Source: Crossaster papposus (taxonomy: Eukaryota; Echinodermata; Asteroidea; Velatida; Solasteridae). Taken from it: a DNA stretch of 64,000 bases. The translations under genes were made by a program, and so were the position numbers. Below are positions 12,218-60,773 of the stretch, piece after piece (the first letter of the stretch is position 1; the number at the start of each line of letters is the position of its first letter). Under the pieces are notes generated by a model. It did no database searches. It was not told the DNA's origin and saw nothing but the letters and a program-made list of their open reading frames with translations. Location: positions 496,001 to 560,000 of the forward strand of contig JBAIAA010000608.1 of assembly GCA_037893245.1 (NCBI GenBank), read 5' to 3'.

Positions 12218-14137
12218 TTACACCCGCTGGAAGATCTTAACTGACTCCCCATCAGCCACCACGAGGTCTCCGCTCGGTGTAAATGTCAAGCCTTGGAGAA
12301 CGGAAAATCCGCTAGCTACCTGCCCAATGAAGACTCCCTCAGGTGAATAATGGTGCACTTCACCGCAGCCGACTGAATATTCTTCGATATCAACGCAAAC
12401 ATAGATGTCCCCAGCATCATCGCAACACACGCCACATGGTTGTACAGGCTTTCCGTTAAACAATGTACTGACATTGAACACCTCATCTCCCGTATAGGTA
12501 GTGCAAATCAATTTGCACTCGTTGTAGTTTGTAAAGATCAAGCGTTCCCTGATCCAGATGGCCAAATAGTAGTCAACCATGTCATGTGAAATGGTTGTAA
12601 TCAACGACCCATCCAGTTGGTGGAGAGATATCACCTTTATCCCGATGTCTGACACTGCTATCCGATTCTTCTTGTCTACAACAATATCACACAGCTTACT
12701 CCCTGAATCAACGTCTGCATCATCCTGTGATGGTGCAAACTGGCGAATGAAGTTTAGACTGGAGTCAAACACCTTTACGTGCTGTTCATCAGTGACCAGA
12801 AGTAGGTCATCAGAGGTCACAGCTACTCCGCAAGGGTCATCCAACCTCTGCATATCAGCACGTGCTTTATACTCTCCACTGGGTGTAAACATTATCAGAT
12901 CCTGTTTGATACAGTCAATAACGGCTATGTCACCATTGGTTAGACACGCCACGTCCGATGCATACGAAAACATTTCACCTCCTGGACCACACTCGCAAAA
13001 CTCTTTTTTGAGCTGCCATTTTTCTTCCTGAAGTACTTTGCCCAGGTCTGTATCTGCCACGACATCTTGACATTTGATCCAGATAAATGAGAGCTCATGC
13101 TGCGCATTCTCCAATTTGAGCTCCCCCTGAAACTCCAAGTTGTGCATCACCTTTGGTTTGAGGTCTAAAAGCTCAAAGACGTCAGCTTGCTGCATCAATT
13201 CGTCGACTGTAGCTACGATTTGCTCGGCCTGCTCCATCTTGTCACGGTTGCTTTTCTGGATTTCCTCAAACTTCCCATCTCGTTCTTTCCCGATTTGTGT
13301 TACTTTGTCTCTGAGAAGGCGAGATTTGTCTCTGACCTTTGCAATCTCCTCTTCCTCTTTGGCAGTAATGTCTTTACAAGCCCGGGCCACCATGATTCTT
13401 AATCTGTTCCTGGCATGCGTCAGAGAAGCATCGGCGACTTTGAATTCTTTTCGTCTCTTGTCGAATCTTTGCAGAATCTCGCCGACGTCCTGACGGTACG
13501 ATTGTATGGCATCTCCGACTTCAATGTATTTATGCTCTTCTGTTCGATGATCTAACGCAGCACATTTACCACACACCAAGGTCTTACATGTCTCGCAGTA
13601 AAAACAGAGATCCTGGTTAGTGTGTTTGTTGCACTGCGGAGTATCTTTCTGCCGGGGAGCCATCGGTGTTACATCGAGTCTGTTTTGTTCTTTTCCAATG
13701 ATCCGATGGTTTCTTGTGGATTTCTTCCGCTTGTGGGCTTCTTGGCATTTGCTGCAGATTATTTTACAGCAGTCTAAGCACCTCGAGACGGCTTCTAAAC
13801 CCTCGCTGCATACCTCACATGTTGGAGCATCTGCTGGTGCGTGTCCTAGCAACTGCTCCTGCTTGTTGAATTCATCAACGAGGGAACTCAAGAAAAAGCA
13901 GTTGGGTAGACTCTGCAATCCAGTGTCTGGTACCGCAGTGGCCCGCCTGCAAACCGGGCAAGGAATCTCGTCTGCATTGGGTGGCTGGCTGCCGATGAGC
14001 TTGTGCAGGCAGTTCAGGCAGAAGCTGTGCAGACAGTCCAGCAGCTTGGGATCGGTGAAACGACAGCAACAAATCGGGCATTCCAAGTGTCCTCGACTGA
14101 TCCTACCCAGCATGGATTTGGCTGAAGCTTCCGCCAT
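12218..14137 (-). CDS. TRIM-NHL E3 ubiquitin ligase, copy 1 (intact, 639 aa)
   Basis: Single-exon TRIM protein, predicted to transfer ubiquitin through its RING and bind targets or RNA through its propeller. The RING starts CPICCCRF, followed by CLHSFCLNC and CPVCRR (C3HC4). Then come B-box 1 (CEVCSEGLE, CLDCC), B-box 2 (CNKH, CETC, CGKC, H, H), a coiled coil of about 110 residues and a C-terminal NHL-type propeller of about 255 residues. The chosen start is ATGGCGGAAG in AAAATGG context, shared with all copies. An in-frame upstream ATG adds 37 residues but crosses a conserved TATGTGCAG|GTTTGG that looks like a 3' splice site, so the long form is unlikely. The closest family is TRIM2/3/71-like class VII, without a filamin domain. 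Its propeller variants include GEMFSYAS, DIEEYSVGCG and SGFSVLQ. Upstream class A. Confidence 0.9.
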   Translation of the reverse strand: MAEASAKSMLGRISRGHLECPICCCRFTDPKLLDCLHSFCLNCLHKLIGSQPPNADEIPCPVCRRATAVPDTGLQSLPNCFFLSSLVDEFNKQEQLLGHAPADAPTCEVCSEGLEAVSRCLDCCKIICSKCQEAHKRKKSTRNHRIIGKEQNRLDVTPMAPRQKDTPQCNKHTNQDLCFYCETCKTLVCGKCAALDHRTEEHKYIEVGDAIQSYRQDVGEILQRFDKRRKEFKVADASLTHARNRLRIMVARACKDITAKEEEEIAKVRDKSRLLRDKVTQIGKERDGKFEEIQKSNRDKMEQAEQIVATVDELMQQADVFELLDLKPKVMHNLEFQGELKLENAQHELSFIWIKCQDVVADTDLGKVLQEEKWQLKKEFCECGPGGEMFSYASDVACLTNGDIAVIDCIKQDLIMFTPSGEYKARADMQRLDDPCGVAVTSDDLLLVTDEQHVKVFDSSLNFIRQFAPSQDDADVDSGSKLCDIVVDKKNRIAVSDIGIKVISLHQLDGSLITTISHDMVDYYLAIWIRERLIFTNYNECKLICTTYTGDEVFNVSTLFNGKPVQPCGVCCDDAGDIYVCVDIEEYSVGCGEVHHYSPEGVFIGQVASGFSVLQGLTFTPSGDLVVADGESVKIFQRV

Positions 14138-15055
14138 TTTGTCTCGCCAAACCTGCACATAGGTATTGTGACAATATCCATCACATAATTTAATTGGGAT
14201 AGTGTGATCTATTTTGACTAAGCCTCCCAGTACAGTTTCTTTTAACACCTACCCTAAAACGGGGCAACTTTGGGGCGATCGTTGATAGGAGTAATGTTTT
14301 TTGGGAGATTGATAAAATATCAAAAATAAATGCAGTTTGATATTATTTTCAACTATTTCTTGGTCATTAGGTAAATAAAAAATAAACAAAAAATACAAGT
14401 AAAATTATTAAAACAAAAAAATGATTGCCAAAATTACACCTGGGTGCTAAGGTTGGAAAACAGGACTGGAAAACTTCGACAGATCGGCATAAAATTGTGA
14501 CACCATTTTAATGTCAAACTGTTTGCCTACCATTTTGCATACCATTGGCACGATTTAAGAGTAGGATACATCATTGGTAATTGCTTGAATTATCATGAAT
14601 GGGAGGATTTGGGGGGGGGGGGGGGGATTGTATTTTATAGTAAATATCGTTCAACTGACCAAAGTTTTACAATCATAGACGTCGAGGAAAACAAGAAAAA
14701 CGGCGGTTTTTTTTCAACCGGCGTCGGGCAGTGTTTGTTATGTTTTTTGTTTTTTTTTCGCGATCGCCGTCCAGCGACTTTTTTCCAAAATAAAACTCAA
14801 TTATTTGATTTTGTTATAGAATATCTAGCGCAATCATTGTGCTTGATGCCTACAATCATTATTTACTTTCAAATAAGTAAGATATTTCTTAATAGTTTGG
14901 TAGTAGTTTTTTTCGATATCGGCAAATGGTGTATTGTACCTTTAACAACCATGAAATGTGCACTGTCGCCAAATACCGCTAATGTCCTATACACCTGAAT
15001 ACTCCAGTTTTATTGTACATGTACCTTCAAAATATCGCCCATGATACAAACATCA
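14138..15055 (-). promoter_or_regulatory. Class A upstream region of TRIM copy 1
   Basis: Non-coding. It begins with the conserved leader (reverse complement of GTTTGGCGAGACAAA) and is paralogous to the regions upstream of copies 4 (47600-48350) and 6 (60800-61150). It contains a 15-base G tract near 14610. No TATA box was identified. After the hAT, Ty3 and MITE insertions the same region continues at 18006, 24189 and 26512. Confidence 0.45.
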
Positions 15056-16395: not shown

Positions 16396-16397
16396 TT

Positions 16398-18172: not shown

Positions 18173-18740
18173 TTTGGTGGTTCGGGGTTATTTTAATGTA
18201 CTTAAACCAAAAACCACCAAGGTTCATACTAAAATTATAAGATAATAAATAAGTCGCCTGCCCGAGGCGTACTGGAATAATATATATAATACTTGCTCGT
18301 TGGTTTCAGAGGGTTAATGTTAAATTAATACAGGACTTGCCCGCAACTGCCAAGGCTTACCAAAATAAAGAATGAAAACTCCAAGGGTAACGTCTGTTTT
18401 TAAAGTATAGACAACTATGTGGATTCGTCCTCCGTGAGGGGCAAACACCACCTAACCAGTATCGGAACCCACATAGTTGGTATATTAAAGCTTGCTATTT
18501 ACTATATCGACGTATTATTCCAGTCGTGCTCAATCAAATGAAGTTGTCGTCTCTGCGAGCTGGAGTGGACTGGGTACTCTCACGTAGCGCCTCACGCTTT
18601 TATACTGGTGATTACGTAAGGGCCAATTCAGAGGAAAAGAAAAGAAACACATGCGTCTTCTGCACGCACGAACTATTTTATTTGCTGAATAGTGGTCGCA
18701 TATTTGGGACCGTTTTAACAAAAAGGAGGAATTCACCACA
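18173..18740 (-). repeat. 3' LTR of the Ty3/gypsy element
   Basis: In element orientation it begins TGTGGTGAATTCC and ends ACCACCAAA. It is preceded (plus-strand 18741 onward) by a purine-rich stretch reading AGGTGGGGA in element orientation, a possible polypurine tract about five bases before the LTR. Confidence 0.9.
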
Positions 18741-18818
18741 GCTAGTCCCCACCTAGATCACCAACTCGGTGATCGGTAATAAACTATGTTTCAAAAATAG
18801 AAAAAACAAAAAATCAAA

Positions 18819-21800
18819 TCATTTTTCAGAAAGATATCTGCTTGGCCAGCGAACATGTCGCCCAGAACGGGTAAATCTGTCAGGATGTTCTGCTGGCTTT
18901 GTAGGTTTATCTTGTTCTACCATTGGACGCGAAGTTTGAGATGGTTGTATCTCATCAGTGTAGGCGATCTTAAGCCTGTCGATGCTAACAGTGTTATTTT
19001 TTCCATTGATGTCGATAATGAAAAATTTGTCTTTTCTGTCAAGAACACGAAATGGCCCATGGTAAGGGGGTTGTAGAGGTTTCCTAACTTTATCTATGCG
19101 TACAAAAACATGTGTGCATGAATATAGATCTTTATGCAATCGACTGAAAAGTTTGCTAGGTCTTGTACGTACTGGTTTTAATTCAGTCATAATACGGCGT
19201 AGACGATCGACATAACTGTTTGGATCTAGAACTTGAAATTCTTCCATTGGAACTATGAATTCACCTGGTAGTCTAAGAGTTGTACCAAATACTAGTTCTG
19301 CTACGCTGCAACCCAAATCTACTTTCAAGGATGTTCTTATTCCCATCAAAATTAATGGCAAAGACTCTGTCCAGCGATTTGGTTCAGTTTGAGCCTTGAA
19401 AGCCGATTTCAGTTGTCTATGAAATCGTTCGACTAAACCATTTGCTTGCGGGTGATATGCTGTAGTACGGATGCGGTTACATCCTAAGAGACGAGATAGA
19501 TTTCTGAAAAGACTAGATTCAAATTGACTACCTCTATCAGTGGTGATTGTTGCAGGTACCCCATAAGTAGCTACCCATCGTTCAACGAATGCTCTTGCAA
19601 CAGTTTCAGCAGTAATATTCGAAATAGGAACTGCTTCAGGCCATCGAGTAAATCGATCTATGCATGTGAGTAAGTAGTTAGATCCCTGAGATGGTGGTAA
19701 TGGACCAACTATATCAATGTGAATATGGTTAAAACGAGCGTCAGGTGTTGCGAAGCTACCTATCGGTGTCACAGAGTGACGATGTACCTTAGCACGTTGA
19801 CACTGTATGCAATGTTTGGTCCATGATCGAATATCTTTGTTAATGGATGACCAAACAAATCGTTGCGTTATTAAACGTTGCGTAGCTCTTATTCCTGGAT
19901 GAGATGTACCATGAATAGAATTAAATACACTTCGCCTAAATTCAGGAGGTATGTAAGGACGCGGTTGACCAGTGGATACATCACATGTAATAGTACCATG
20001 TGAAGTAAAAAGTGGCATTTCTTGAAATTTAAGATTCGACGATGTACGTAGCTTAAATAGCTCTTCGTCGGTCTTTTGTTTACAAGCTATTGCGTCGTAA
20101 TCCACTATACCGATTGATGTTGTGGAAGTCATAGCAATGTCGAGTCTAGAAAGTGCATCGGCTACAGTATTTTCACTACCTTTTACATGGCGTATATCTG
20201 TACTGAACTGAGAAATATAATCCAAGTGACGGATCTCCCTAGGTGAATAACGATCAGGCTTCGCTGTAAAGGCATATGTAAGTGGTTTGTGATCGGTTAA
20301 AATGCAAAAATCACGACCTTCTAGCAAATGTCTAAAATGGCGAATAGACAAGTATACTGCCAATAGCTCGCGACCAAATGTACTGTATTTAGTTTCTGCT
20401 GGTTGTAAGCGCTTTGAAAAGAAAGCAATGGGCATAACAACATTATCGACACATTGATGAATTGCTCCGCCGATTGCAACGCTAGACGCATCAGTCATGA
20501 GGCAAAGTGAGCTTTTCGCATTTGGGTGTACTAACAAAGTAGCTTCAGCAAGGCAGGATTTAGCTGTCTGAAAAGCTTTCAAGGCAGTCTCGGAAAGTAC
20601 GATTGCTTGATTTTTGGATTTAGGCCTACCTGACAAAAGGTCAGTGAGGGGTTGCAATATATCTGCACAGTTTGGAATGAATCTGCGGTAGAAATTAATC
20701 AATCCTAAAAATTCTCGTAACTTGCGGATAGTTTGGGGAATTGGAAAATCTTTGAGTACTTTGATTTTATCATTCAATGGCAAAATGCCATTGTTATCAA
20801 TGTAATGGCCAAGAAATTCCAATGAAGTTGCACCAAACTGACACTTGTTAGGATTGATTACCACTCCATATTGCCGCAAACGCTCAAACACTAGTTCGAG
20901 GTGTTGTCGATGTTCTTGTTCATCGATGCTAGCTATTAATACATCGTCTATATATGCATATACAAAGTCTAGTCCATTGAGTACTTGGTCGATGAATCTT
21001 TGAAATGTTTGTGCAGCATTTCTTAAGCCAAAAGGCATTCGAACATATTCAAAAAGACCAAAAGGTGTTGTGATCGCAGTTTTCGGAATGTCCGATGGTT
21101 CGATAGGAATTTGGTGATAGGCCTTAACCAGATCGATTTTAGAAAAGACTTTCTTGTTATTTAAAGTAGCAGTAAAGTCGTGAATGTGCGGAATTGGATA
21201 TCGGTCTGGAGTTGTGGCGTTATTCAAAGCGCGGTAATCGCCGCAAGGTCTCCAATCACCGGTTTTCTTCGGAACCATATGCAAAGGTGACGACCAAGCA
21301 CTCTCAGATGGGCGAATAATACCTAGTTCTAACATATGGTTGAATTCGGCTTTGGCTATCGGTAATTTGTTTGAGGCAAGACGCCGAGGTTTGGAATATA
21401 CTGGCGGACCTCTGGTATGGATATGATGTGTAACAGTGTGCTTGATAGCAGTTTCATCATAATTTGGTTTAGTTATTTCGGGAAACTGGTTAAGCAAAGC
21501 ATGATATACGTTGTCTGTTTCAGGAATTGAAAACATCGGTTTTGGAGAAACTACTGATGTTTTGCAACCACGAATCTCAAGTTCGGTTTGAGAATCGATC
21601 AGTTTTCTATTTTTCATATCCACTACCAATGAAAAATGCCTCAAAAAATCCGCACCAATAATCGGTATAGGAACTTCTGCGATAATGAAAATCCACTTAA
21701 ATGCACGTCTTAAACCTATATCAATGGTCATAGATCTTTCGCCATAGGTTGATATAATGGATTTATTTACTGCTTGTAATGTATACGGACTCGAGTTCTT

Positions 21801-21917
21801 TTTGTCTGTTCTAGTAGGTGGCAGCACACTAACTTCAGCGCCAGTGTCTATCAAAAATCTAGTGCCAGAGATTCTATCGGTAATGTAGAATAGACGACTT
21901 TTAGGTTTGCCAGACAC
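18819..21917 (-). CDS. pol: Ty3/gypsy Pol polyprotein (protease, RT, RNase H, integrase)
   Basis: A 1032-residue open frame. Residue numbers count from the codon at 21917, which is GTG. Aspartic protease DTGA is at 24-27. Reverse transcriptase carries YIDD at 322-325. RNase H acidic residues are D476, E517, D542 and D587. Integrase has an HHCC zinc finger (H669, H673, C703, C706) and the D,D35E triad D735, D794, E830, followed by a GPF-type C-terminal region. There is no ATG near the beginning: the frame is -1 relative to gag, overlaps its last roughly 35 bases and continues open through the gag stop. It is therefore probably made as a Gag-Pol fusion by -1 frameshifting, although no canonical slippery heptamer was recognised. 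All catalytic residues are present, so the enzyme set may be functional. Confidence 0.95.
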
Positions 21918-21928
21918 ACTTGTCGTCT

Positions 21929-22843
21929 CTAGTTGCTGGCGGTCCAGTTTTCCGGTGTTGCGGATTTATCCTTTTGTTCAACAAAAGTACAAGGTTTGAC
22001 GCATTTCAGCGCTTTGTCACCGAAACGCCAATGATACCAACATTCCGAACCTGATCGCGGCAGAGTTTTAGGTTGGTATTTAGGTCTGCTTCGAGAACGG
22101 GAGGAATTTCGATATTTGTTTTGAAACCGTTCCTTAGAACGTTCGCGATTAGGATACATTTGTTCGTGTCCACCTTTTGATTCATTAGAAACGACCAATG
22201 TTTGTACCAAGGCTGTTAATTGCGAAACTTGTGTTTGCAGATTGTCTAATTGCGATTTATAAGATGGGGGTACTACTGTTGACGGTGCAGCTGCAGCACC
22301 TAAAGTAAAAGTAGACACCGAGGACGGAACGGCTACTTCTAGAATCTTATCTGCAATAACGGCTAATTGGTCTAGATCAACTGCGTCACTAGAGGAAACT
22401 AAAATAAGCTGAACATTTTGTGGCAAACGTTGTAAAAATAACTGCCTTAAAATGTTATCCTCCAATAAATTGTTGCCAAGAAGTTGTTTCATACGTCGCA
22501 AAAGTTGAGTTGGTTTTCTATCTCCTAGTTCTTCCGAGATTAATAACTGATGCAAACGTTTTTGTTCCGATTCCGAGGTCCGTTTTATGAGCTCCGTTTT
22601 TAATTTGTCGTACGGATTTGTTTCAGGGGGAGAAATTAATAAATCTCGGATCTCTTGTGCGATTTCGGGTTGCAAAGATGAAACAACGTATGAGAATTTA
22701 GTTGACTGGCTAGTGATTTGGCGAGTCTGAAATTGAGCTTCTACTTGCGCGAACCATATTGTTGGATCACGTGGCCAAAATGGAGGTAATTTTAGGCTTA
22801 CAGCTGCAAGTGGCTCAAATTTGACACTGGGTCCTGCATCCAT
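21929..22843 (-). CDS. gag: Ty3/gypsy Gag-like protein with zinc knuckle
   Basis: Capsid-type protein of 304 residues. The start is set at the ATG at 22843; the frame is open two codons further upstream, from GTG. The N-terminal motif [20 protein letters not shown] is a recurrent opening of Ty3/gypsy Gag in invertebrates. Near the end CWYHWRFGD followed by KCVKPC forms a degenerate Cys/His knuckle for RNA binding. A basic Arg/Ser stretch (SRSRSRPK) precedes it. It ends TASN-TAG, where the pol frame overlaps. It begins 19 bases after the SGNH ORF stop, so re-initiation or leaky scanning would be needed on a shared transcript. Confidence 0.88.
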
Positions 22844-22862
22844 GATCACTATTTGTTACTAT

Positions 22863-23582
22863 TTATAATTGTTGCAGCGCAGTGTAGTCAATCATAAATG
22901 AACGATACATTTCCGAAAACCAGCGCTGTTTTAGTTTAAAGTCGCCGTGCAAACCGTCGTACAAGTGTGCGAAGTGGTTTCTTGCGTTGCGTGTTGTTTT
23001 ACCGCGACGAGTTCTCTTTTCCACTTTTCTTATTGTGTTGTGCCAAGACAGTGTTCTCAATACAATTCTACTCTGAGCAATGCTATTGTGTTGTATAATC
23101 CTCTCATTAACGTCGTCGGTTATTGCATTGTGATTACGTTGAAAACCCTGAATGTCGTTCTTTGAAAGGATTGGTACGCGTAGCTTTTTGCTTGCTTGGA
23201 ACTTAGCAAACGACATAGGAGGAATAGTGACAAAAGAAACCAAGGTATTTGGTCTTGCAGATACGATGGCGCCTTTGAAATTGTCCAATTCGGTAAATAA
23301 GCTCTCTGCTGTATGATTAGAAGGCTTCAATACGCGATATTCGTGCGTTATGTCGTATTCAAACTTAGTGAGGTCATTAATACCGGCTGCAAGACGTACG
23401 ACTACGCGATCATTGGCGTTATACGAACTTAATTTGCGAACAGTAGGTCCTACGAGATTATAAATTTTAGAACCGCGTATAACAACAAAATCAACTGTGA
23501 AAGAAAATGCTTTCGGTTCTGGCTTAGAATACTTTGAAAACTTGTGTCCCCTAGAATCGGCAACGAATAAATACCTAATCAT
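22863..23582 (-). CDS. Extra first ORF with SGNH/GDSL-hydrolase-like motifs
   Basis: A 239-residue protein starting at an ATG 34 bases after the 5' LTR, ahead of gag. It has the four SGNH blocks in order: VADSRG (candidate nucleophile Ser10), a Gly in VIRGS (Gly37), AGINDL (Asn69) and YDGLHGD (Asp209, His212). Such enzymes are esterases or lipases; related esterase domains occur in ORF1 of CR1-type LINEs, but I do not know them as a standard part of Ty3/gypsy elements. The reading frame is intact and compactly packed with gag, so it is treated as a component of the element. Fold assignment is from motif spacing only. Confidence 0.7.
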   Translation of the reverse strand: MIRYLFVADSRGHKFSKYSKPEPKAFSFTVDFVVIRGSKIYNLVGPTVRKLSSYNANDRVVVRLAAGINDLTKFEYDITHEYRVLKPSNHTAESLFTELDNFKGAIVSARPNTLVSFVTIPPMSFAKFQASKKLRVPILSKNDIQGFQRNHNAITDDVNERIIQHNSIAQSRIVLRTLSWHNTIRKVEKRTRRGKTTRNARNHFAHLYDGLHGDFKLKQRWFSEMYRSFMIDYTALQQL

Positions 23583-23596
23583 ATTACTCCTTAGGT

Positions 23597-23614
23597 TTTA
23601 TGTCGAGGTCACCA
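23597..23614 (-). other. Putative primer-binding site
   Basis: Two bases inside the 5' LTR the minus strand reads TGGTGACCTCGACATAAA. The leading TGG would pair with the CCA end of a tRNA. The tRNA species was not identified. Confidence 0.5.
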
Positions 23615-23616
23615 GT

Positions 23617-24184
23617 TTTGGTGGTTCGGGGTTATTTTAATGTACTTAAACCAAAAACCACCAAGGTTCATACTAAAATTATAAGATAATAAATAAGTCG
23701 CCTGCCCGAGGCGTACTGGAATAATATATATAATACTTGCTCGTTGGTTTCAGAGGGTTAATGTTAAATTAATACAGGACTTGCCCGCAACTGCCAAGGC
23801 TTACCAAAATAAAGAATGAAAACTCCAAGGGTAACGTCTGTTTTTAAAGTATAGACAACTATGTGGACTCGTCCTCCGTGAGGGGCAAACACCACCTAAC
23901 CAGTATCGGAACCCACATAGTTGGTATATTAAAGCTTGCTATTTACTATATCGACGTATTATTCCAGTCGTGCTCAATCAAATGAAGTTGTCGTCTCTGC
24001 GAGCTGGAGTGGACTGGGTACTCTCACGTAGCGCCTCACGCTTTTATACTGGTGATTACGTAAGGGCCAATTCAGAGGAAAAGAAAAGAAACACATGCGT
24101 CTTCTGCACGCACGAACTATTTTATTTGCTGAATAGTGGTCGCATATTTGGGACCGTTTTAACAAAAAGGAGGAATTCACCACA
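23617..24184 (-). repeat. 5' LTR of the Ty3/gypsy element
   Basis: 568 bp, identical in length to the 3' LTR with one substitution seen. It presumably holds the promoter; no TATA box was confirmed. It is followed on the plus strand by GCACCATACAA, the continuation of the interrupted unit. Confidence 0.9.
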
Positions 24185-24383
24185 GCACCATACAATTGTT
24201 TTTGCTCGTTAGAACCGCGGATGTACTTTGAGCTCTGATTGGATAGAGATTGTACCTGACCTGTGAACTGGGAGGTTTCGCGACTCGCAAATAATTTGTT
24301 TTGCACCGCAGCGAAGGGTTTCTTTTTGTAACACTGACAATTCCACTCTTGAAAGGAGACTCACAAATACAATGTACACAGCG

Positions 24384-28145: not shown

Positions 28146-28395
28146 TCACACATGTTGGAAGATTTTGACTGAGACCTTATCGTCAGCCACCATGAGGCCT
28201 CCGCTTGTCGTGAATGTCAGTTCATAGGAAGAGTGAATCTGCAGGCCACCCGCCCGATGGAGACTCCCTCGGGTGAATAATGATGCACTTCACCGCTGCC
28301 GACTGCATCTTCTTCGATATAAACGCAAATAAGATGTCCCCAGCATCATCGAAACACACGCTAGAGGGTTGTACAGGCTCCCCGTCAAACGATTC
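28146..28395 (-). pseudogene. Truncated TRIM 3' fragment, unit 2
   Basis: Matches the last propeller blades of the TRIM genes (GEVHHYSPEG-like region, DDAGDIYV-like region). It is decayed: several substitutions and a base loss (CAAATAAGATG), and it ends abruptly in ACGATTCGACGATTTTAACG. It lies about 430 bases beyond the stop of copy 2 and is paralogous to the fragments in units 3 to 6. Confidence 0.75.
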
Positions 28396-28830
28396 GACGA
28401 TTTTAACGATTTTAAATTATGTTTGTTTCTGTTTTTGGTGTGTGTGCAATGTTAATTAACTTTTATATAATTATGATTGTTATTGTTAATTACTGGTATC
28501 ACGAAAGTCGTATATTTCGCGCCCCACAGGGTCTAGAGATAGGTGTAGCCTAAAATCGCTGCAACATCAAGATGGACCGATGCCTCTGTTAGTTGTTTAG
28601 TTATGACGAGTTGTTGCCATTCTGCACTGATTGACTCATACTCGCTGGGATATCTTGACAGAGAAAAATATACAGAATCCTCAAACAATCGCAACTAAGG
28701 CTAGTCCAATTGTGCGTCTTGGCATGGTGCCTATGCTAGAAAACGAGGCGGGATTGCTATGAACTGTCTGCCTATTCTGTAGTGTTTAGTGATTACAAAT
28801 GACTAATGAAATCGCGCGATATTTTGTCGC

Positions 28831-40205: not shown

Positions 40206-40745
40206 TTTTAGTTATAGGGAATATTGCTGCCACATTTGGGCTGGTGCTCTAGCTTGTCATTTGTCCCTGCTTGACAGAATTCAGAGACGAATTTCAAATC
40301 TTGTCGGAGAGGACTTAGCTTCTTTATCTTTGCAACCCCTATCTCTCCGTCTTTCTGTAGCCTCTTTGAGCCTTTTTTTTTATACAGATATCACTTTGGT
40401 AGGTGCTCTAGCTTGTCATTTGTCTCTGCTTTACATAATTCAGAGACTAATTTCAAATCTTGTCGGAGAGGACTTAGCTTCATCTTTGCAACCCGTATCT
40501 CTCCGTCGTTCTGTAGCCTCTTTGAGCCTTTTTTTTATACAGATATCACTTTGGTAGATGCTCCAACGGCCTTTCACTGGTCGTTCCACCTAGCCGCACA
40601 TTTGGTCGCACCACTCGTCTCTCTGTCCATTCTTATTCTCATACTGTAGTTGTCCAGAAAGCAAATACTCGGGAATACTCATCCAGCTTCTTCCCTCGTA
40701 TTGCTGTGTTCGGGAATGCGCCGTATTTCTAGCCGCATGAGGGCG
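40206..40745 (+). pseudogene. LINE RT C-terminal relic with internal tandem duplication (unit 3)
   Basis: Reads YCCHIWAGALACHLSLLDRI in one frame, then a second near-identical tandem segment of about 165 bases, then degraded C-terminal sequence. An extra TTT insertion (GCTTCTTTATC) distinguishes it from unit 2. Confidence 0.6.
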
Positions 40746-43036: not shown

Positions 43037-43308
43037 TCACACATTTCGGAAGATTTTGACTGAGACCTTATCATCAGCCACCATTAGGCCTCCGCTTGTC
43101 GTGAATGTCAGTCCATAGAAAGAGTGAATCTGCAGGCCACCCGCCCGATGGAGACTCCCTCGGGTGAATAATGATGTACTTCACCGCTGCCGACTTCATC
43201 TTCTTCGAGATAAACGCAAACATAGATGTCCCCAGCATCATCGCAACACACGCCAGAGGGTTGTACAGGCTCCCCGTCAAACGATGTAATTACATTAAAC
43301 ACCTCATT
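43037..43308 (-). pseudogene. Truncated TRIM 3' fragment, unit 4
   Basis: Same limits as the unit 3 fragment; encodes FNVITSFDGEPVQPSGVCCD and DAGDIYVCVYLEEDEVGSGE before degenerating. The terminal part reads ACACATTTCGGAAG instead of ACACATGTTGGAAG. Confidence 0.8.
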
Positions 43309-43484: not shown

Positions 43485-44073
43485 GCTTAGTTATGACGAG
43501 TTGTTGCCATTCTGCACTGACTCATACTCGCAGGGATATCTTGACAGAGGAACATTCTATAATTATACAGAATCCTCAAACGAACGCAACTAAGGCTAGT
43601 TTTATTGTGCGCTTTGGCATGGTGCCTATGCTAGAAAACGAGGCGGGATCGTTATGAACTGTCTGCCTATTCAGTAGTGTTTAGTGATTGCAGATGGCTA
43701 ATGAAATCGCGCGACATTTGTTCGCTTATACCCGCTGGAAGATCTTAACTGACCCCCAATCAGCCGCCACGAGGTCTCCGCTCGGTGTGAATGTCAATCC
43801 TTGGGGAAAGGAAAGTCCGCGAGCTACCTGCCCGATGAAGACTCCCTCAGGTGAATAATGGTGCACCTCGCCTCTGCCGCCTGTTACATAGACAATAACG
43901 GAAACATAGATGTCCCCAGCATCATCGCAACACACGCCATATGGTCGTACAGGCTTCCCGTTAAACGATGTACTGACATTAAACACCTCATCTCCCGTAT
44001 AGGTAGTGCAAATCAATTTGCTCTTGCTGTAGTTTGTGAAGATCAAGCGTTCCCCGATCCCGATGGCCAAATT

Positions 44074-45998
44074 TATTTTATTTATTCCATTTCTTTACCC
44101 AGGGTGTGCCCAAACAGTTTAAAACTGGTTTTCATTGGGGCCCTGCATATACATCATCAAATAAAATAACAGTACATATTATAAATACAAGGATATTACA
44201 GGAATTCTAAACATTAATACTAATTCTGATTTACGAGATAGGCGAAAACCCGCCAAATAAAAAACCTTTTAGGTGAAAAATAAGAAGGGGAAATTCCTAT
44301 CCGGCTCCACATTATAGCGGCAACCAAGTTCTAACTCCGTAGATCAGCGCAATTGGCATAATATCTAACACTCAGATGGCATGTCGGAGCTCTGATTTAA
44401 ATGTGCTTAATGAGTCCAATGTTCGCAATTGTTCGGGCAGATTATTCCAAATATTTGCACCACTCACAGCGAAACTTGTGGCGTAGCATTCTTTTTTGGC
44501 GAAAGGAACTTTCAGTGCCGTGTGGGTTGATTGCCTTGTTTCGCGAATTACTGTAAGTGGTTTGAAAATATTTGTCATGTACAAAGGAGTCATTTTGTTG
44601 ATACTTTTGAAGACAAGAATAGCCTTTTTTGACTTGACTCTTTTTGAAAAAGGGGTCCAATTAAGACGAGCAAACATATCCTCTGAAGGGGTGAGGAAGG
44701 TACATTTAAGGATTATTCGCGCGGCTCTTTTGAGACATTTGTTTAACATATTATCGTGAGATATGTACCTTCCTCCCCACACAGTACAACAATACTCTAA
44801 TGTTGGCATAACTAGACTTACAAATAGTGTGTGCAAGCTGTGCTGAGGAATACAATCACGGATTCTTCTTAGTATACCTAATTTAGACACCACATTTTTT
44901 CTTACGTATTCGACATGTGGGCCCCAACTTAATGCTTCATCAATAATTACACCCAAACATTTATAAGACTTCACATTTTCAATACGACTACCAGCAATGC
45001 ATACATTTAAATTAACATTAGATATTTTCTGCCTAGTACCAATAAGCATGCATTTGGTTTTGGTGGCATTTAAAGCTAGCTTGTTTCTTCCGCACCAGTT
45101 GTGAAAACTAGTAAGAGCTGTATTTAAGCTACTTTCTATTATATTAATGTTGGAGGAGCTACACGTTAATGTGGAGTCATCTGCATACATAAATAAGTTG
45201 CAGTTTGGGGCAATACAAAATGGAAGGTCACTAGTATAAACAATGAATAAAAGTGGACCTAGTATCGACCCCTGTGGAACACCAGTGTTTACAGACAGGA
45301 CCTTTGATATGGTGCCGCCAATATTCACAGACTGACTACGTTCACTTAGGTACGACTTAAACCAATTTATTACAGAAGATGACATGTTCATCCTTTCTAG
45401 TTTCTTTAGTAAGATTTCATGATCAACACAATCAAATGCTTTACTGAGGTCTATAAACACACTGCCTGTAACTTGTCCATTCTCCATGGCCGCAAAACAC
45501 TTGTTTGTTAAGTCATGTAGGGTGCTTTCAGTTGAGTGCAGGGGTCTAAATCCCGACTGGCAACTAGGAATCAGATTGTTTTCATCAAGATATCTATATA
45601 CCGATGAGTGCACCCATCTTTCTAAAATCTTAGAGATAATTGGCAGTATAGAAATTGGACGATAGTTACCTGTACTACATTTATCTCCTCCCTTGTGAAT
45701 TGGTGTTACTAAAGCATGTTTCCAATCTTTAGGGTATCGCTCACATCTTATAGACAGGTTAACAATATGAGTTAAAGATTTAATGATATAAGGTGAAGCA
45801 ATTTTAATCATTTTAACACTAATTCCATCCGGACCTGTTGCTTTCCCAACCGACATGGATGATATTTGCTTTCGAACAAACTCTTCTGTAATGTTAGGTA
45901 CTACGCAATCTTCATCAACAGAATCAAATATAGAGGCGTCAGTATTGTCATCTATTTCAAGTTCACGCAAAGGGTAATTTCCAGCAGTACGCTTGCCG
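44074..45998 (-). mobile_element. 5'-truncated LINE inserted in TRIM copy 4
   Basis: A 1925-bp insertion in reverse orientation. Its 3' tail (minus strand) ends GGAATAAATAAAATAAA, a short A-rich microsatellite tail of CR1/Rex/jockey-type LINEs. The 5' part including the endonuclease is missing. Target duplication is at most a few bases (AAT). Confidence 0.88.
44372..45998 (-). CDS. LINE reverse transcriptase (5'-truncated ORF2)
   Basis: Open frame covering the reverse transcriptase and C-terminal region of a jockey/CR1-group non-LTR element. Motifs in order: KATGPDGIS, PIHKGGDK, YRPISILP, GFRPLHST, FIDLSKAFDCVDH, TGVPQGSILGPLLF, the catalytic MYADDST and the later NKLALNATKTK. The C-terminal half ends GANIWNNLPEQL. 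The endonuclease is absent. The frame continues upstream into TRIM antisense-free sequence, where the nearest ATG (46021) is host DNA, so no native start exists. Catalytic residues look intact but the element lacks its 5' half and is probably not autonomous. Confidence 0.9.
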
Positions 45999-47593
45999 AT
46001 TGTTGGTGCCAACCATGTCATGCGGTATGGTTGTAATCAAGGACCCATCCAGTTGGTGGAGAGATATCACCTTTCTCCCTATGTCCAACACTGCTATCCG
46101 ATTCTTCTTGTCCACAGCAATATCACGCAGTATACTCCCTGAATCAACGTCTGTATCGCCCTGTGATGGTGCAAACTGGCGAATGAAGTTTAGACTGGAG
46201 TCAAACACCTTTACGTGCTGTTCATCAGTGACCAGAAGTAGGTCATCAGAGGTCGCAGCTAGTCCGCGAGGGTCATTCAACCTCTCCATACCAGCACATG
46301 CTTTATACACCCCACTGGGTGTAAACATTGTCAGATTCTGTTTGATATAGTCAATAACGGCTATGTTACCATTAGTTAGACACGCGACGTCCGATGCACC
46401 CTCAAATTTTTCATCTCCTGGCCCACACTTGCAAAACTCTTTTTTGAGCTGCCATTTTTCTTTCTGAAGTACTTTGCCCAGGTCTGTGTCTGCCACGACA
46501 CCTCGACATTTGATCCCGATAAATGAGAGCTCATGCTGCGCATTCTTCAATTTGAACTCCCCCTGAAACTCCAAGTTGTGCATCACCTTTGGTTTGAGGT
46601 CTAAAAGCTCAAAGACGTCAGCTTGCTGCATCAATTCGTCGACTGTAGCTACGATTTGCTCGGCCTGCTCCATCTTGTCACGGTTGCTTTTCTGGATTTC
46701 CTCAAACTTCCCATCTCGTTCTTCCCCGATTTGTGTTACTTTGTCTCTGAGAAGGCGAGATTTGTCTCTGACCTTTGCAATCTCCTCTTTCTCTTTGGCA
46801 GTAATGTCTTTACAAGCCCGGGCCACCATGATTCTTAATCTGTTCCTGGCATGCGTCAGTGAAGCATCGGCGACTTTGAATTCCTTTCGTCTCCAGTCGA
46901 ATCTTTGCAGAATCTCGCCGACGTCCTGACGGTACGATTGTATGGCATCTCCGACTTCTCTGTATTTATGCTCTGCTGTGCGATGATCTAACGCAGCACA
47001 TTTCGCACACGCCAAGGTCTTGCATGTCTCGCAGTAAAAACATAGATCCTGGTTAGTGTGTTTGTTGCACTGTGGAGTATCTTTCTTCCGGGGAGCCATC
47101 GGTGTTACATCGAGTCTGTTTTGTTCTTTTCCAATGATCCGATGGTTTCTCGTGGATTTCTTTCGCTCGTGGGCTTCTTGACATTTGGCGCAGATGATTT
47201 TACAGCAGTCTAAGCACCTCGAGACGGCTTCTAAGCCCTTGCTGCATACCTCACATGTTGGAGCATCTGCTGGTGAGTGTCCTAGCAACTGCTCCTGCTT
47301 GTTGAATTCATCAACAAGGGAACTCAAGAAAAAGCTGCTGGGTAGACCCTGCAATCCCGTGTCTGGTACCGCAGTTGCACGCCTGCAAACCGGGCAAGGA
47401 ATCTTGTCTGCATTGGGTGGTTGACTGCTGATGAGCTCGTCCAGGCAGTTCAGGCAGAAGCTGTGCAGACAGTCCAGCAGCTTGGGATCGGTGAAACGAC
47501 AGCAACAAATTGGGCATTCCAGGTGTCCCCGACTGATCGTACCCAGCATTGATTTGGCTGCAGCTTCCGCCATCTTGTCTTGCCAAACCTGCA

Positions 47594-50564: not shown

Positions 50565-50836
50565 TCACACATGTTGGAAGGTTTTGACTGGGACCTTATC
50601 ATCAGCCACCATAAGGCCTCCGCTTGTCGTGAATGTCAGTCCATAGGAAGAGTGAATCTGCAGGCCACCCGCCCGATGGAGACTCCCTCGGGTGAATAAT
50701 GATGCACTTCACCGCTGCCGACTTCATCTTATTCGAGATAAACGCAAACATAGATGTCCCCAGCATCATCGCAACACACACCAGAGGGTTGTACAGGCTC
50801 CCCGTCAAACGATGTAATTACATTAAACACCTCATT
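50565..50836 (-). pseudogene. Truncated TRIM 3' fragment, unit 5
   Basis: Same limits as the fragments in units 3 and 4, ending at CACCTCATT|GGTGCTG. The reading frame is broken before the stop. Confidence 0.8.
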
Positions 50837-51263: not shown

Positions 51264-53180
51264 TCACACCCGCTGGAAGATCTTAACTGACGTCCAATCA
51301 GCCACCACGAGGTCTCCGCTCGGTGTGAATGTCAATCCTCGGGGATCATAAAGTCCGCGAGCTACCTGCCCGATGAAGACTCCTTCAGGTGAATAATGGT
51401 GCACTTCACTGCTGTTGAATTCTTCATCGATATCAACGGAAACATAGATGTCCCCAGAATCATCGCAACACACGCCAGAGGGTCGTACAGGCTCTCCGTT
51501 AAACGATGTACTGACATTAAACACCTCATCTCCCGTATAGGTAGTGCAAATCAATTTGCTCTCGTCGTAGTTTGTGAAGATCAAGCGTTCCCTGATCCCG
51601 ATGGCCAAATTGTTGCCGACCATGTCATGTGGAATGGTTGTAATCAAGGACCCATCCAGTTGATGGAGAGATATCACCTTTCTCCCGCTGTCTAACACTG
51701 CTATACGATTCTTCTTGTCCACAACAATGTCACACAGGTCACTTTCTGAATCAACGTCTGCATCATCCTGTGATGGTGCAAACTGGCGAATGAAGTTCAG
51801 ACTGGAGTCAAACACCTTTACGTACTGTTCTTCAGTGACCAGAAGTAGGCCATCAGAGGTCACAGCTACTCCCCAAGGGTCATTCAACCTCTGCATACCA
51901 GCACATGCTTTATACTCTCCACTGGGTGTAAACATCATCAGCTGCTGTTTGGTATCGTCAATAACGGCTATGTCACCATTGCTTAGACACGTGACGCCTG
52001 ATGCCTCCTCTAATCCTTTATCTCCTGGCCCACACTCGCAAAACTCTTTTTCGAGCTGCCATTTTTCTTCCTGAAGTACTTTGCCCAGGTCTGTGCCTGC
52101 CAGGACACCTCGACATTTAAACCCGATAAACGAGAGCTCATGCTGCGCATTCTTCAATTTGAGCTTCCCCTGGAACTTCAAGTTGTGCATCACCTTCGGT
52201 TTGAGGTCTAAAAGCTCAAAGTCGTCAGTTTGCCGCATCAATTCGTCGACTGTCGCAACGATTTGCTCGGCCTGCTCCATCTTGTCACGGTTGCTTTTCT
52301 GGACTTTCTCAAACTTCCTATCTCGTTCTTCTCCAATTTGTGTTACTTTGTCTCTGAGAAGGCGAGATTTGTCTCTGATCTTTGCAATCTCTTCTTCCTC
52401 TTTGGCGGTAATGTCTTTACAAGCCCGGGCCACCATGATTTTTAATCTGTTCCTGGCATGCGTCAGTGAAGCATCGGCGACTTTGAATTCCTTTCGTCTC
52501 CTGTGGAATCTTTGCCGAATCTCGCCGACGTCCTGACGGTACGCTTGTATGGCATCTCCGACTTCTCTGTATTTATGCTCTGCTGTGCGATGATCTAACG
52601 CAGCACATTTCGCACACGCCAAGGTCTTACATGTCTCGCAGTAAAAACAGAGATCCTGGTTAGTGTGTTTGTTGCATTGTGGAGTACCTTTCTTCCGGGG
52701 AGCCATCGGTGTTACATCGAGTCTGTTTTGTTCTTTTCCAATGATCCGATGGTTTCTCGTGGATTTCTTCCGCTTGTGGGCTTCTTGGCATTTGGCGCAG
52801 ATGATTTTACAGCAGTCTAAGCACCTCGAGACGGCTTCTAAGCCCTCGTCACATTCCTCACATGTTGGAGCATCTGCTGGTGCGTGCCCTAGCAACTGCT
52901 CCTGCTTGTTAAATTCATCAACGAGGGAACTCAAGAAAAAGCAGTTAGGTAAACTCTGCAATCCAGTGTCTGGTACCGCAGTGGCCCGCCTGCAAACCGG
53001 GCAAGGAACCTTGTCTGCATTGGGTGGCTGGCTGCTGATGAGCTCGTTCAGGCAGTTCAGGCAGAAGCTGTGCAGACAGTCCAGCAGCTTGGGATCGGTG
53101 AAACGACAGCAACAAATCGGGCATTCCAGGTGTCCTCGACTGATCGTACCCAGCATGGATTTGGCTGCAGCTTCCGCCAT
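51264..53180 (-). CDS. TRIM-NHL E3 ubiquitin ligase, copy 5 (intact, 638 aa)
   Basis: Single-exon gene starting MAEAAAKSML, with all zinc ligands of RING and both B-boxes, the coiled coil and a complete propeller ending IFQRV. It differs from the others in the coiled coil (QAYRQDVGEIRQRFHRRR), in the linker (GFKCRGVLAGTDL) and in propeller loops (DKGLEEAS, DDTKQQL, LDSGRKV, DIDEEFNSS, LYDPRG). One expected DEQHVKV reads EEQYVKV. It is the most diverged of the open copies by eye. Upstream class B. Function is inferred as for copy 2. Confidence 0.92.
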   Translation of the reverse strand: MAEAAAKSMLGTISRGHLECPICCCRFTDPKLLDCLHSFCLNCLNELISSQPPNADKVPCPVCRRATAVPDTGLQSLPNCFFLSSLVDEFNKQEQLLGHAPADAPTCEECDEGLEAVSRCLDCCKIICAKCQEAHKRKKSTRNHRIIGKEQNRLDVTPMAPRKKGTPQCNKHTNQDLCFYCETCKTLACAKCAALDHRTAEHKYREVGDAIQAYRQDVGEIRQRFHRRRKEFKVADASLTHARNRLKIMVARACKDITAKEEEEIAKIRDKSRLLRDKVTQIGEERDRKFEKVQKSNRDKMEQAEQIVATVDELMRQTDDFELLDLKPKVMHNLKFQGKLKLKNAQHELSFIGFKCRGVLAGTDLGKVLQEEKWQLEKEFCECGPGDKGLEEASGVTCLSNGDIAVIDDTKQQLMMFTPSGEYKACAGMQRLNDPWGVAVTSDGLLLVTEEQYVKVFDSSLNFIRQFAPSQDDADVDSESDLCDIVVDKKNRIAVLDSGRKVISLHQLDGSLITTIPHDMVGNNLAIGIRERLIFTNYDESKLICTTYTGDEVFNVSTSFNGEPVRPSGVCCDDSGDIYVSVDIDEEFNSSEVHHYSPEGVFIGQVARGLYDPRGLTFTPSGDLVVADWTSVKIFQRV

Positions 53181-55195: not shown

Positions 55196-55886
55196 TTTTA
55201 GTTATATGAAATATTGCTGCCACATTTGGGCTGGTGCTCTAGCTTGTTATTTGTCCCTGCTTGACAGAATTCAGAGACGAATTTCAAATCTTGTCGGAGA
55301 GGACTTAGCTTCATCTTTGCAACCCCTATCTCACCGTCGTTCTGTAGCCTCTTTGAGCCTTTTTTTTTTACAGATATCACTTTGGTAGGTGCTCTAGCTT
55401 GTAATTTGTCTCTGCTTGACAGAATTCAGAGACTAATTTCAAATCTTGTCGGAGAGGACTTGGCTTCTTCATCTTTGCGACCCCTATCTCTCCGTCGTTC
55501 TGTAGCCTCTTTGAGCCTTTTTTTTATACAGATATCACTTTGGTAGGTGCTCTAGCTTGTAATTTGTCTCTGCTTGACAGAATTCAGAGACTAATTTCAA
55601 ATCTTGTCGGAGAGGACTTGGCTTCTTCATCTTTGCGACCCCTATCTCTCCGTCGTTCTGTAGCCTCTTTGAGCCTTTTTTTTAAACAGATATCACTTTG
55701 GTAGTTGCTCCAACGGCCTTTCACTGGTCGTTCCACCTAGCCACACCTGGTCGAACCACTCGTCTCTCTGTCCATTCTTATCCTCATACTGTAGTTGTCT
55801 CCAAAGCAAATACTCGGGAATACTCATCCAGCTTCTTCCCTCGTATTGCTGTGCTTAGGAATGCGCCGTATTTCTAGCCGCATGAG
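55196..55886 (+). pseudogene. LINE RT C-terminal relic, three tandem segments (unit 5)
   Basis: The segment of about 165 bases that is doubled in units 2 and 3 is tripled here. The second and third segments share TTGGCTTCTTCATCTTTGCG and are nearly identical, so the third arose recently by tandem duplication. Confidence 0.65.
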
Positions 55887-56290: not shown

Positions 56291-56299
56291 ACGTAGAAA

Positions 56300-58167: not shown

Positions 58168-58437
58168 TCACACATGTTGGAAGATTTTGACTGAGACCTC
58201 GTCATCAGCCACCATGAGGCCTCCGCTTGTCGTGAATGTCAGTCCCTAGGAAGAGTGAATCTGCAGGCCACCCACCCGATGGAGACTCCCTCGGGTGAAT
58301 AATGATGCACTTCACCGCTGCCGACTTCATCTTCTTCGAGATAAACGCAAACATAGATGTCCCCAGCATCATCGCAACACACACCAGAGGGTTGTACAGG
58401 CTCCCCATCAAACGATGTAATTACATTAAACACCTCG
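58168..58437 (-). pseudogene. Truncated TRIM 3' fragment, unit 6
   Basis: As in units 3 to 5, with a changed junction (CACCTCGATGGTGCTG). Encodes FNVITSFDGEPVQPSGVCCD and then degenerates. Confidence 0.8.
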
Positions 58438-58612
58438 ATGGTGCTGTATTTTTTCCTCAAGGAAGGGAATTGCGGTATGTGTTCAATTACTTTTTATACA
58501 CTTTTATTCGTTCGTATTGGTATCACGAAAGTCGTATTTTTTCGCGCCCCACAGGGTCTCGAGATAGGTGTAGCCTAAATCGCTGCAACATCTAAATGGA
58601 CCGATGCCTCTG

Positions 58613-58858: not shown

Positions 58859-60773
58859 TCACACCCGCTGGAAGATCTTAACTGACGCCTGATCAGCCAC
58901 CACGAGGTCTCCGCTCGGCGTGAATGTCAATCCTTTTGGATTTGAAAAGTCCGCGAGCTACCTGCCCGATGAAGACTCCCTCAGGTGAATAATGGTGCAC
59001 TTCACCGCAATCATCTTCATCGATATAAACGGAAACATAGATGTCCCCAGCATTATCGCAACACATGCCAGAGAGTCGTACAGGCTCCCCGTCAAACGAT
59101 GTACTGACATTGAACACCTCATCTCCCGTATAGGTAGTGCAAATCAATTTGCTCTCGCTGTAGTTTGTGAAGATCAATCGTTCCCCGATCCCGATGGCCA
59201 AATTGTTGTCAATCATGTCATGTGGAATGGTTGTAATCAAGGACCCATCCAGTTGGTGGAGAGATATCACCTTTCTCCCGATGTCTAACACTGCTATACG
59301 ATTCTTCTTGTCTACAACAATACCACGCAGGTCACTCTCTGAATCGACGTCTGCATCACCCTGTGATGGTGCAAACTGGCGAATGAAGTTTAGACTGGAG
59401 TCAAACACCTTTACGTGCTGTTTATAAGTGACCAGAAGTAGGTCATCAGAGGTCGCAGCTACTCCACGAGGGTAATTCAACCTCTGCTTATCAGCACATG
59501 CTTTATACTCTCCACTGGGTGTAAACATTATCAGATTCTGTTTGATATAGTCAATAACGGCTATGTCACCATTGGTTAGACACGCGACGTCCGATGCAAA
59601 CACAAATTTTTCATCTCCTGGACCACACTCGCAAAACTCTTTTTTGAGCTGCCATTTTTCTTCCTGAAGTACTTTGCCCAGGTCTGTGTCTGCCACGACA
59701 CCTCGACATTTGATCCCGATAAATGAGAGCTCATGCTGCGCATTTTCCAATGTGAGCTCCCCCTGGAACTCCAAGTTGTGCATAACCTTTGGTTTGAGGT
59801 CTAAAAGCTCAAAGTCGTCAGCTTGCCGCATCAATTCGTCGACTGTCGCTACGATTTGCTCGGCCTGCTCCATCTTGTCGCGGTTGCTTTTCTGGACTTC
59901 CTCAAACTTCCTATCTCGTTCTTCCCCGATTTGTGTTACTTTATCTCTGAGAAGGCGAGACTTGTCTCTGACCTTTGCAATCTCCTCTTCCTCTTTGGCG
60001 GTAATGTCTTTACAAGCTCGGGCCACCATGGTTCTCAACCTGTTCCTGACATGCGTCAGTGAAGCATCGGCGACTTTGAATTCCTTTCGCCTCCTGTCGA
60101 ATCTTTGCAGAATCTCGCCGACGTCCTGACGGTACGATTGTATGGCATCTCCGACTTCTCTGTATTTATGCTCTGCTGTGCGATGATCTAACGCAGCACA
60201 TTTACCACACGCCAAGGTCTTGCATGTCTCGCAGTAAAAACAGAGATCCTGGTTAGTGTGCTTGTTGCATTGTGGAGTATCTTTCTTCCGGGGAGCCATC
60301 GGTGTTACATCGAGTCTGTTTTCTTCTTTTCCAATGATCCGATGGTGTCTCATGGAGTTCATGCGCTTGTGGGCTTCTTGGCATTTGGCGCAGATGATTT
60401 TACAGCAGTCTAAGCACCTTGCGACGGCTTCTAAGCCCTCGTTACATTCCTCACATGTTGGAGCATCTGCTGGTGCGTGTCCTAGCAACTGCTCCTGCTT
60501 GTTGAATTCATCAACAAGGGAACTCAAGAAAAAGCTGCTGGGTAGACCCTGCAATCCATTGTTTGGTACCGCAGTGGCCCGCCTGCAAACCGGGCAAGGA
60601 ATCTTGTCTGCATTGGGTGGTTGACTGCTGATGAGCTCGTCCAGGCAGTTCAGGCAGAAGCTGTGCAGACAGTCCAGCATCTTGGGATCGGTGAAACGAC
60701 AGCAACAAATCGGGCATTCCAGGTGTCCTCGACTGATCGTACCCAGCATGGATTTAGCTGCAGCTTCCGCCAT
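58859..60773 (-). pseudogene. TRIM-NHL copy 6, frameshifted in the last propeller blade
   Basis: All domains are intact from MAEAAAKSML through GVFIGQVARGL. An extra A relative to the other copies (TTTGAAAAGTCC against AATGAAAGTCC) then shifts the frame; translation ends at 58893 after about 16 foreign residues (FKSKRIDIHAERRPRGG) instead of reaching the conserved IFQRV-TGA at 58859. The final strand that closes the propeller is lost. Translation as far as 58893 gives 626 residues, so a RING-active protein with a damaged propeller is possible. Variants: DEKFVFAS, DYIKQNL, YIDEDDCG, RLSGMCC. Upstream class A. Confidence 0.85.

Follow-up and report, generated by a model that had tools for sequence, protein, structure and literature searches.

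What does a sea star do with a row of near-copies of one TRIM gene whose products differ mainly in the loops of a C-terminal propeller? The question arises from a 64,000-nucleotide stretch of Crossaster papposus DNA, here called the window (positions 496001-560000 of contig C608, JBAIAA010000608.1, in the 1.02 Gb assembly GCA_037893245.1). The original prediction, made from these letters, described six TRIM-NHL copies with an almost unchanged RING, B-box and coiled-coil part and short variable sites on what would be the binding face of the propeller. We established the array, its domains and their zinc ligands, positive selection and its location on one face of the predicted structure, recombination among the copies, and a similar second array. 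From sequence, predicted structure and analogy with other TRIM families we think it probable that this is a germline repertoire of TRIM-NHL E3 ligases with a diversified recognition face; the type of ligand and the immune role are what we infer from these results.

Results

A tandem array of TRIM-NHL genes

Six TRIM-NHL open reading frames (ORFs) are present where they had been predicted, all of them long, single-frame and on the minus strand. Counted from the ATG of the MAEA motif, four of the six are intact (C1, C2, C3 and C5); C4 is broken by a long interspersed nuclear element (LINE) and C6 is frameshifted near its end.

12218-14137, minus strand: C1 (g01), intact TRIM-NHL coding sequence, 639 amino acids; propeller 12221-13042
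28831-30756, minus strand: C2 (g02), intact TRIM-NHL coding sequence, 641 amino acids; propeller 28834-29658
36303-38195, minus strand: C3 (g03), intact TRIM-NHL coding sequence, 630 amino acids; propeller 36306-37106
43729-44073, minus strand: remainder of the C4 propeller, downstream of the LINE
44074-46001, minus strand: LINE insert within C4, approximate limits from the reverse-transcriptase (RVT_1) match and tblastn break points; its reverse-transcriptase ORF spans 44372-46021
about 46002-47573, minus strand: 5' part of the LINE-broken gene C4 (g04), with RING, B-boxes, coiled coil and the first half of the propeller
51264-53180, minus strand: C5 (g05), intact, 638 amino acids, the reference for residue numbering; propeller 51267-52085
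58893-60773, minus strand: C6 (g06), C-terminus frameshifted; the last ~27 codons continue in another frame at 58862-58948

Where large elements do not intervene, the copies start ~5.6 to 7.6 kb apart, and whole repeat units in the window are 88-92% identical in DNA. The six copies are the start of a 26-copy same-strand tandem array at C608:508221-698610 (~190 kb), in which 21 copies are intact (630-641 amino acids) and five are broken. Three pairs (g10/g20, g11/g21 and g23/g25) are 99.9-100% identical in DNA and therefore point to recent block duplication; these pairs and g13 aside, nearest-copy identity is 93-95%. Copies g19 and g22 share one additional A within a run of A at residue 377, immediately ahead of a propeller whose frame is otherwise open, and g16 is frameshifted slightly upstream of this residue by a different change. 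These frameshifts may reflect drift or assembly error, and in g19 and g22 also a shared mutation or gene conversion.

The family extends well beyond this contig. In a genome-wide propeller search, 141 of 1388 first-look candidates were scored and all 141 matched, 26 of them on C608 and 115 on other contigs. At least 86 of these 115 matches lie in open frames of at least 600 residues (two of the 86 flagged with a stop inside the match), mainly on contigs C459, C669, C592, C628, C216, C445 and C255. As E-values were still ~1e-63 at the end of the list, the family is probably larger than the matches listed.

Domain architecture

All six window copies match at least one Pfam RING model and the B-box model PF00643 over cut-off, and five of the six match the B-box-like PF22586, always below its cut-off. 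The NHL model (PF01436) passed its cut-off in four of six, falling short only in the broken C4 and the frameshifted C6. The C3HC4 zinc-ligand pattern of the RING and the zinc-ligand pattern of the second B-box are kept in all 21 intact copies, and a putative coiled coil was placed at residues 216-370 from its position and a phmmer match with TRIM28 structures. The proteins would be expected to act as E3 ubiquitin ligases and to dimerise. No SPRY/B30.2 domain is found among the Pfam matches of the six window copies, the NHL propeller standing in its place, and no filamin domain is found among them either. AlphaFold returned a confident propeller of 23 strands for five window copies (that of C6 cut short), with a predicted local distance difference test score (pLDDT) of 83.2 and a predicted template modelling score (pTM) of 0.85. 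The best Foldseek matches of the model were the NHL domains of TRIM2, TRIM3, TRIM71, Thin and Brat, at a template modelling score of ~0.75 for TRIM2, TRIM3 and TRIM71.

Positive selection on the propeller

Selection was counted in 17 copies, namely the 21 intact ones minus g20, g21 and g25 (99.9-100% duplicates) and g13 (76-78% identical to the others); the five broken copies were left out. Pairwise synonymous divergence (dS) is equal in the two parts of the gene (0.132 in residues 1-370 and 0.120 in the propeller), whereas nonsynonymous divergence (dN) is 2.4-fold higher in the propeller (0.107 against 0.044). Substitutions are not spread evenly over the domains (dN/dS 0.33 in the N-terminal part, 0.89 in the propeller), and "almost unchanged" was a fair description of the N-terminal part.

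The equal dS also bears on the view that the loops are under no special selection and that gene conversion merely homogenises the 5' half of the gene while the 3' half diverges. Recombination among the copies is clear, none of 300 permutations reaching the observed value (see below), but 5'-half homogenisation as the cause is ruled out because dS does not differ between the halves, and we give this view almost no credence.

Variable columns in the 21 intact proteins form about two clusters per blade, ~17 residues apart, through all six blades; the second clusters of blade 2 (450-453) and blade 3 (498-499) vary least. At the 29 hypervariable propeller columns, picked by entropy, nucleotide diversity among 18 copies (g13 kept) was 0.50, 0.40 and 0.24 at codon positions 1, 2 and 3, and the corresponding values in the N-terminal part were 0.054, 0.039 and 0.082.

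We coded the site models M0, M1a, M2a, M7, M8 and M8a in Python and fitted them separately to three propeller segments; every segment had its own tree, since the segment trees look different and recombination was detected. Under M8, the segments yielded omega values of 6.8, 6.0 and 6.7 at 21%, 13.5% and 16% of sites, and M8 exceeded M8a by twice the log-likelihood difference (2dlnL) of 101.5, 66.3 and 98.1. Null simulations, run with the parameters of the first segment only, reached a 2dlnL of at most 2.95 (n=12) and, with half of the sites placed on another tree to represent recombination, up to 28.9 (n=12). The propeller signal is clear of both nulls. For the N-terminal part M8 gave an omega of 2.0 with a 2dlnL of 16.8, which lies within the recombination null, and positive selection is not claimed there.

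Selected sites on one face of the propeller

In propeller geometry, the DA and BC loops lie on one face (here the top) and the AB and CD loops on the other. The AlphaFold strands define the loop classes, apart from residues 386-392, which we placed in the DA class, and the tail, 636-638, which fell in CD. The 30 sites selected with a posterior above 0.95 comprise 20 of 70 positions in the top loops, 7 of 32 in strand A, 3 of 99 in strands B-D and none of 52 in the bottom loops. The clustering of differences exceeds chance (top against bottom loops, Fisher p = 6e-6), and the loop variants quoted in the original prediction are present in the window copies. Selected sites are thus concentrated on one face of the predicted propeller. 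In C5 they fall as follows.

52005-52016, minus strand: blade 1 DA loop, residues 389-392; 389, 391 and 392 selected
51942-51956, minus strand: blade 1 BC loop, residues 409-413; 409, 410 and 412 selected
51873-51884, minus strand: blade 2 DA loop and start of strand A, residues 433-436; 434 and 436 selected
51729-51746, minus strand: blade 3 DA loop and start of strand A, residues 479-484; 481, 483 and 484 selected
51684-51689, minus strand: blade 3 BC loop, residues 498-499; variable, with posteriors of at most 0.95 in this array; 498 selected in the second array (C459, below)
51612-51617, minus strand: blade 4 DA loop, residues 522-523; both selected
51558-51569, minus strand: blade 4 BC loop, residues 538-541; 538, 539 and 541 selected
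51477-51485, minus strand: blade 5 start of strand A, residues 566-568; 566 and 568 selected
51411-51434, minus strand: blade 5 BC region, residues 583-590; 587-589 selected, length also variable
51336-51350, minus strand: blade 6 DA loop, residues 611-615; 611, 612 and 615 selected
51291-51296, minus strand: blade 6 BC loop, residues 629-630; both selected

The expectation that the variable sites are not buried in the strands mostly held on the predicted structure. Beyond the 20 sites in the DA and BC loops, six are at the same rim, within the opening three residues of strand A, and the remaining four lie elsewhere in strands. The ratio of nonsynonymous to synonymous differences per site (pN/pS) was 1.42 in the top loops (bootstrap 1.02-2.25), 0.74 in the strands and 0.31 in the bottom loops (AB 0.54, CD 0.14); both the top-loop ratio and the M8 omega of 6.0-6.8 exceed 1.

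Correspondence with the RNA contacts of LIN41

The NHL domain of LIN41 contacts RNA through Cys563, Arg564, Arg581, Ser582, Arg611, Lys628, Asp629, Tyr658, Trp660, Arg676, Arg707, Phe722, Arg752 and Arg770 (PMC5908797, in part). In an alignment with TRIM71 (8j72), the first of these correspond to the residues flanking the P of PxGV and to the two residues after the VAD of the blade. Carrying the equivalent positions over to all blades gave a contact template of 30 positions, which was set by hand from the published contacts after the variable columns were known. Selected sites make up 17 of the 30 template positions and 13 of the 223 other propeller residues (p = 6e-11), and the template has a pN/pS of 1.62 (1.12-2.56). 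At 0.32, template pN is ~3-4 times the divergence of alignable flanking DNA, whose means of 7.5-11.9% were taken only over pairs that could be aligned (68, 48 and 44 of 231 upstream and 91 downstream).

These values speak to whether the array is simply decaying and its exposed loops drifting under relaxed constraint, as could be read from the five broken copies among 26 and from the decayed propeller relics that adjoin the copies. We reject this explanation as very improbable: loop pN lies well above flank divergence, the bottom loops are held at a pN/pS of 0.31 and the N-terminal part at a dN/dS of 0.33, and 21 of the 26 copies are open. Among internal controls for relaxed constraint, the bottom loops, with their few changes, are the cleanest.

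The original prediction allowed for RNA or protein as the ligand, and RNA is the weaker half. Summed over the top loops, net charge is negative (-18 to -2) in 19 of 21 copies and +2 and +4 in the other two; the commonest residues at selected positions are Y, G, D, E and R. Published accounts give NHL faces that bind RNA a basic character (PMC5908797 and PMC9070667, both in part). As the top loops are mostly net negative, we favour proteins or complexes over bare RNA as ligands, and a role for RNA may vary between copies. It has to be weighed that the propellers might instead be RNA sensors, each copy reading a different viral or transposon RNA on its NHL face in the manner of LIN41 and Brat. 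The variable positions coincide with the LIN41 contacts, the fold matches the Brat and TRIM71 RNA complexes, and seven of 21 copies are net positive at the selected positions; moreover, Mei-P26 is an RNA binder even though it fails to conserve 11 of the 15 contact residues of Brat (PMC9070667, in part). Against this stand the net negative top loops and selected positions led by Y, G, D and E, and we consider RNA sensing unlikely.

A second array

A second contig, C459, repeats the C608 pattern more weakly. We used 20 of its 23 listed matches, all 20 in the pN/pS counts and 19 in the site models; frames were shorter in two of the three others. All 20 propellers are open and are 45-49% identical to that of C5. 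Entropy is 0.91 in BC, 0.55 in DA, 0.67 in strand A, 0.21 in AB and 0.15 in CD. M8 against M8a gave 2dlnL values of 60.4, 70.3 and 31.8 for the three segments (n=19). Selected sites comprise 18 of 70 positions in top loops, 5 of 32 in strand A, 6 of 99 in strands B-D and 1 of 52 in bottom loops (top against bottom, p = 2e-4). Template positions were selected in 14 of 30 cases, other positions in 16 of 223 (p = 2e-7), with a template pN/pS of 1.54, and 14 selected sites are common to the two arrays (p = 2e-7).

Exchange among copies

Recombination in C608 was evident in a permutation test (0.425 observed, 0.521 permuted), in which 0 of 300 permutations gave a value as low. The twelve loop clusters are nearly unlinked, with a mean correlation of sharing of 0.09 between neighbours and 0.03 between others, and 18 different sets of loops occur in the 21 intact copies. 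The loop variation is explained by duplication and mutation together with selection and exchange between copies.

Decayed propeller fragments lie downstream of copies and were considered as donors for conversion.

28149-28413, minus strand: decayed remnant of another propeller C-terminus, lying downstream of a copy
35612-35880, minus strand: further propeller relic
43040-43308, minus strand: further propeller relic
50568-50836, minus strand: further propeller relic
58171-58448, minus strand: further propeller relic

The 14 fragments compared are on average 92% identical to each other, their best gene match is 80-84% in DNA over 250-273 bp, the longest exact tract that any has in common with a gene is 29-56 bp and their longest frame is 101 codons; we rejected them as donors. 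Hypermutation like that of diversity-generating retroelements, hinted at by the excess of variation at codon positions 1 and 2 over position 3, is not supported: no template-like copy was seen among the fragments, although no search was aimed at a template, and the pattern is what amino-acid selection gives.

Observations that weigh against the proposed repertoire

Several results count against a repertoire shaped by selection on one face. Recombination inflates the significance of site models, and the third C459 segment (31.8) stands barely above the recombination null (28.9). Four of the 30 C608 sites (415, 426, 440 and 517) are located within strands but not at the start of strand A; C459 has its one selected bottom-loop site and its six in strands B-D, and its pN/pS intervals span 1 (template 0.99-2.71, top loops 0.81-1.95). 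For blades 3-6, the register against LIN41 was set mainly by the spacing within blades rather than by direct alignment. In C608, pS is roughly doubled at template sites (0.198 against 0.097 in the rest of the propeller; C5 51291-52010), which selection alone does not predict and which could arise from counting error at multiply hit codons, from exchange involving copies outside the sample or from a local rise in mutation rate. Finally, the selected positions taken alone are not uniformly acidic: of the 21 copies, 12 are net negative there, 2 neutral and 7 net positive.

Other features of the window and the assembly

A young-looking long terminal repeat (LTR) retrotransposon lies between C1 and C2 at 18173-24186, with 570-bp repeats that are 99.8% identical; its ORFs comprise pol (reverse transcriptase, RNase H, integrase), DUF7041 and a 239-residue ORF without a Pfam match. 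An imperfect palindrome of 7.2 kb with arms 92% identical lies at 4070-11524. Each end is formed by a 42-bp minisatellite, with 38 copies at 4070-5673 and, in the opposite direction, 33 at 10131-11524; the long ORFs on both of its strands are read as repeat artefacts. Within the array, 158/159-bp tandem units of similar sequence occur as two copies at 40243-40563 and three at 55233-55710. Elsewhere in the assembly, the 16,330-bp mitochondrial contig C1841 has a COX1 that, judged by eye on conserved residues, reads sensibly with AAA as Asn and ATA as Ile, which is the echinoderm code. With 16S located by Rfam and the remaining genes named by eye from their ORFs, the gene order is 16S, ND2 and ND1 on the minus strand, followed by COX1, COX2, ATP6, COX3, ND3, ND4 and ND5, and by ND6 on the minus strand, the order of sea stars; the mitochondrial data thus indicate an echinoderm and most likely a sea star. 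COX1-family matches also lie on long standard-code frames of contig C8 (5.3 Mb); they differ from the mitochondrial COX1, and the contig may belong to a bacterial symbiont or contaminant.

Discussion

We propose that each gene would combine a near-constant RING, B-box and coiled-coil part, for catalysis and dimerisation, with a six-bladed NHL propeller, and that positive selection would diversify the DA and BC loops of the six blades on one propeller face, so that each copy may offer a different binding surface on the same ligase. New copies would arise by tandem and block duplication, and gene conversion or unequal exchange would reshuffle loop variants among them. The likely job of such proteins may be intracellular recognition of foreign or fast-changing ligands followed by their ubiquitination.

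Known class VII TRIM-NHL proteins are encoded by single or few genes and are mostly developmental. The array proteins have the RING, B-boxes and NHL propeller in common with this class, also called subfamily C (TRIM2, TRIM3, TRIM56, TRIM71, Brat, Mei-P26 and Thin), and the same fold by Foldseek and sequence. Unlike its known members, they form a tandem, single-frame set with a positively selected face and without a filamin domain among the Pfam matches. The human TRIM2, TRIM3 and TRIM71 NHL domains already differ among themselves at the top opening (PMC9634614, in part).

Loop-diversified TRIM repertoires are known for the B30.2/SPRY class: finTRIM, btr and trim35 in fish and TRIM5alpha in primates are also multigene or fast-evolving, with selected hypervariable loops at the ligand face (PMC3137616, in part). 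These differ in that the recognition domain is B30.2/SPRY rather than NHL and the hosts are vertebrates. By analogy, the array would work like the finTRIM and TRIM5 type of repertoire but, with NHL and no SPRY, is not a member. Tandem TRIM expansions in animals have been named as a topic for later work (PMC3503706, in part), and our literature search, which reached few subscription papers, found no title or abstract that treats an NHL TRIM repertoire under diversifying selection.

Nematode F-box and MATH-BTB ligase adapters likewise form large families with selected substrate domains, in another ligase class and with another binding domain. Propellers themselves can be diversified: in fungal het-d and het-e, interaction-face residues, four per repeat, are positively selected, and there is exchange among family members (PMC1805685, in part). 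There the repeats are WD40 units exchanged within and between genes, whereas here six distinct blades are kept and the variation lies in the loops of paralogs. As het-d and het-e serve self/non-self recognition, they lend some weight to the idea that the ligands are self molecules in some non-infectious conflict, for example allorecognition, gamete interaction or germline and transposon control, and nothing in our data singles out pathogens. We find this idea doubtful, given that the closest TRIM analogues, the B30.2 TRIMs of fish and primates, are tied to virus binding and defence (PMC3137616, in part).

A wider proposal, which we hold more tentatively, is that sea stars may run an intracellular recognition system of hundreds of TRIM-NHL ligases in several tandem arrays, with a constant ligase part and a multi-loop face mixed by gene conversion, as an antibody-like, germline-diversified repertoire. 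If true, this would place such a repertoire in proteins that have so far been associated with conserved RNA binding in development.

Echinoderms have large sets of TLR, NLR and SRCR genes, beside which the array would provide a candidate repertoire for intracellular recognition. NHL TRIMs have been known chiefly as conserved regulators of development; tandem arrays of them with selection focused on one propeller face would mean that the class can act as a variable receptor family, and the selected sites name residues for ligand-binding tests in NHL proteins.

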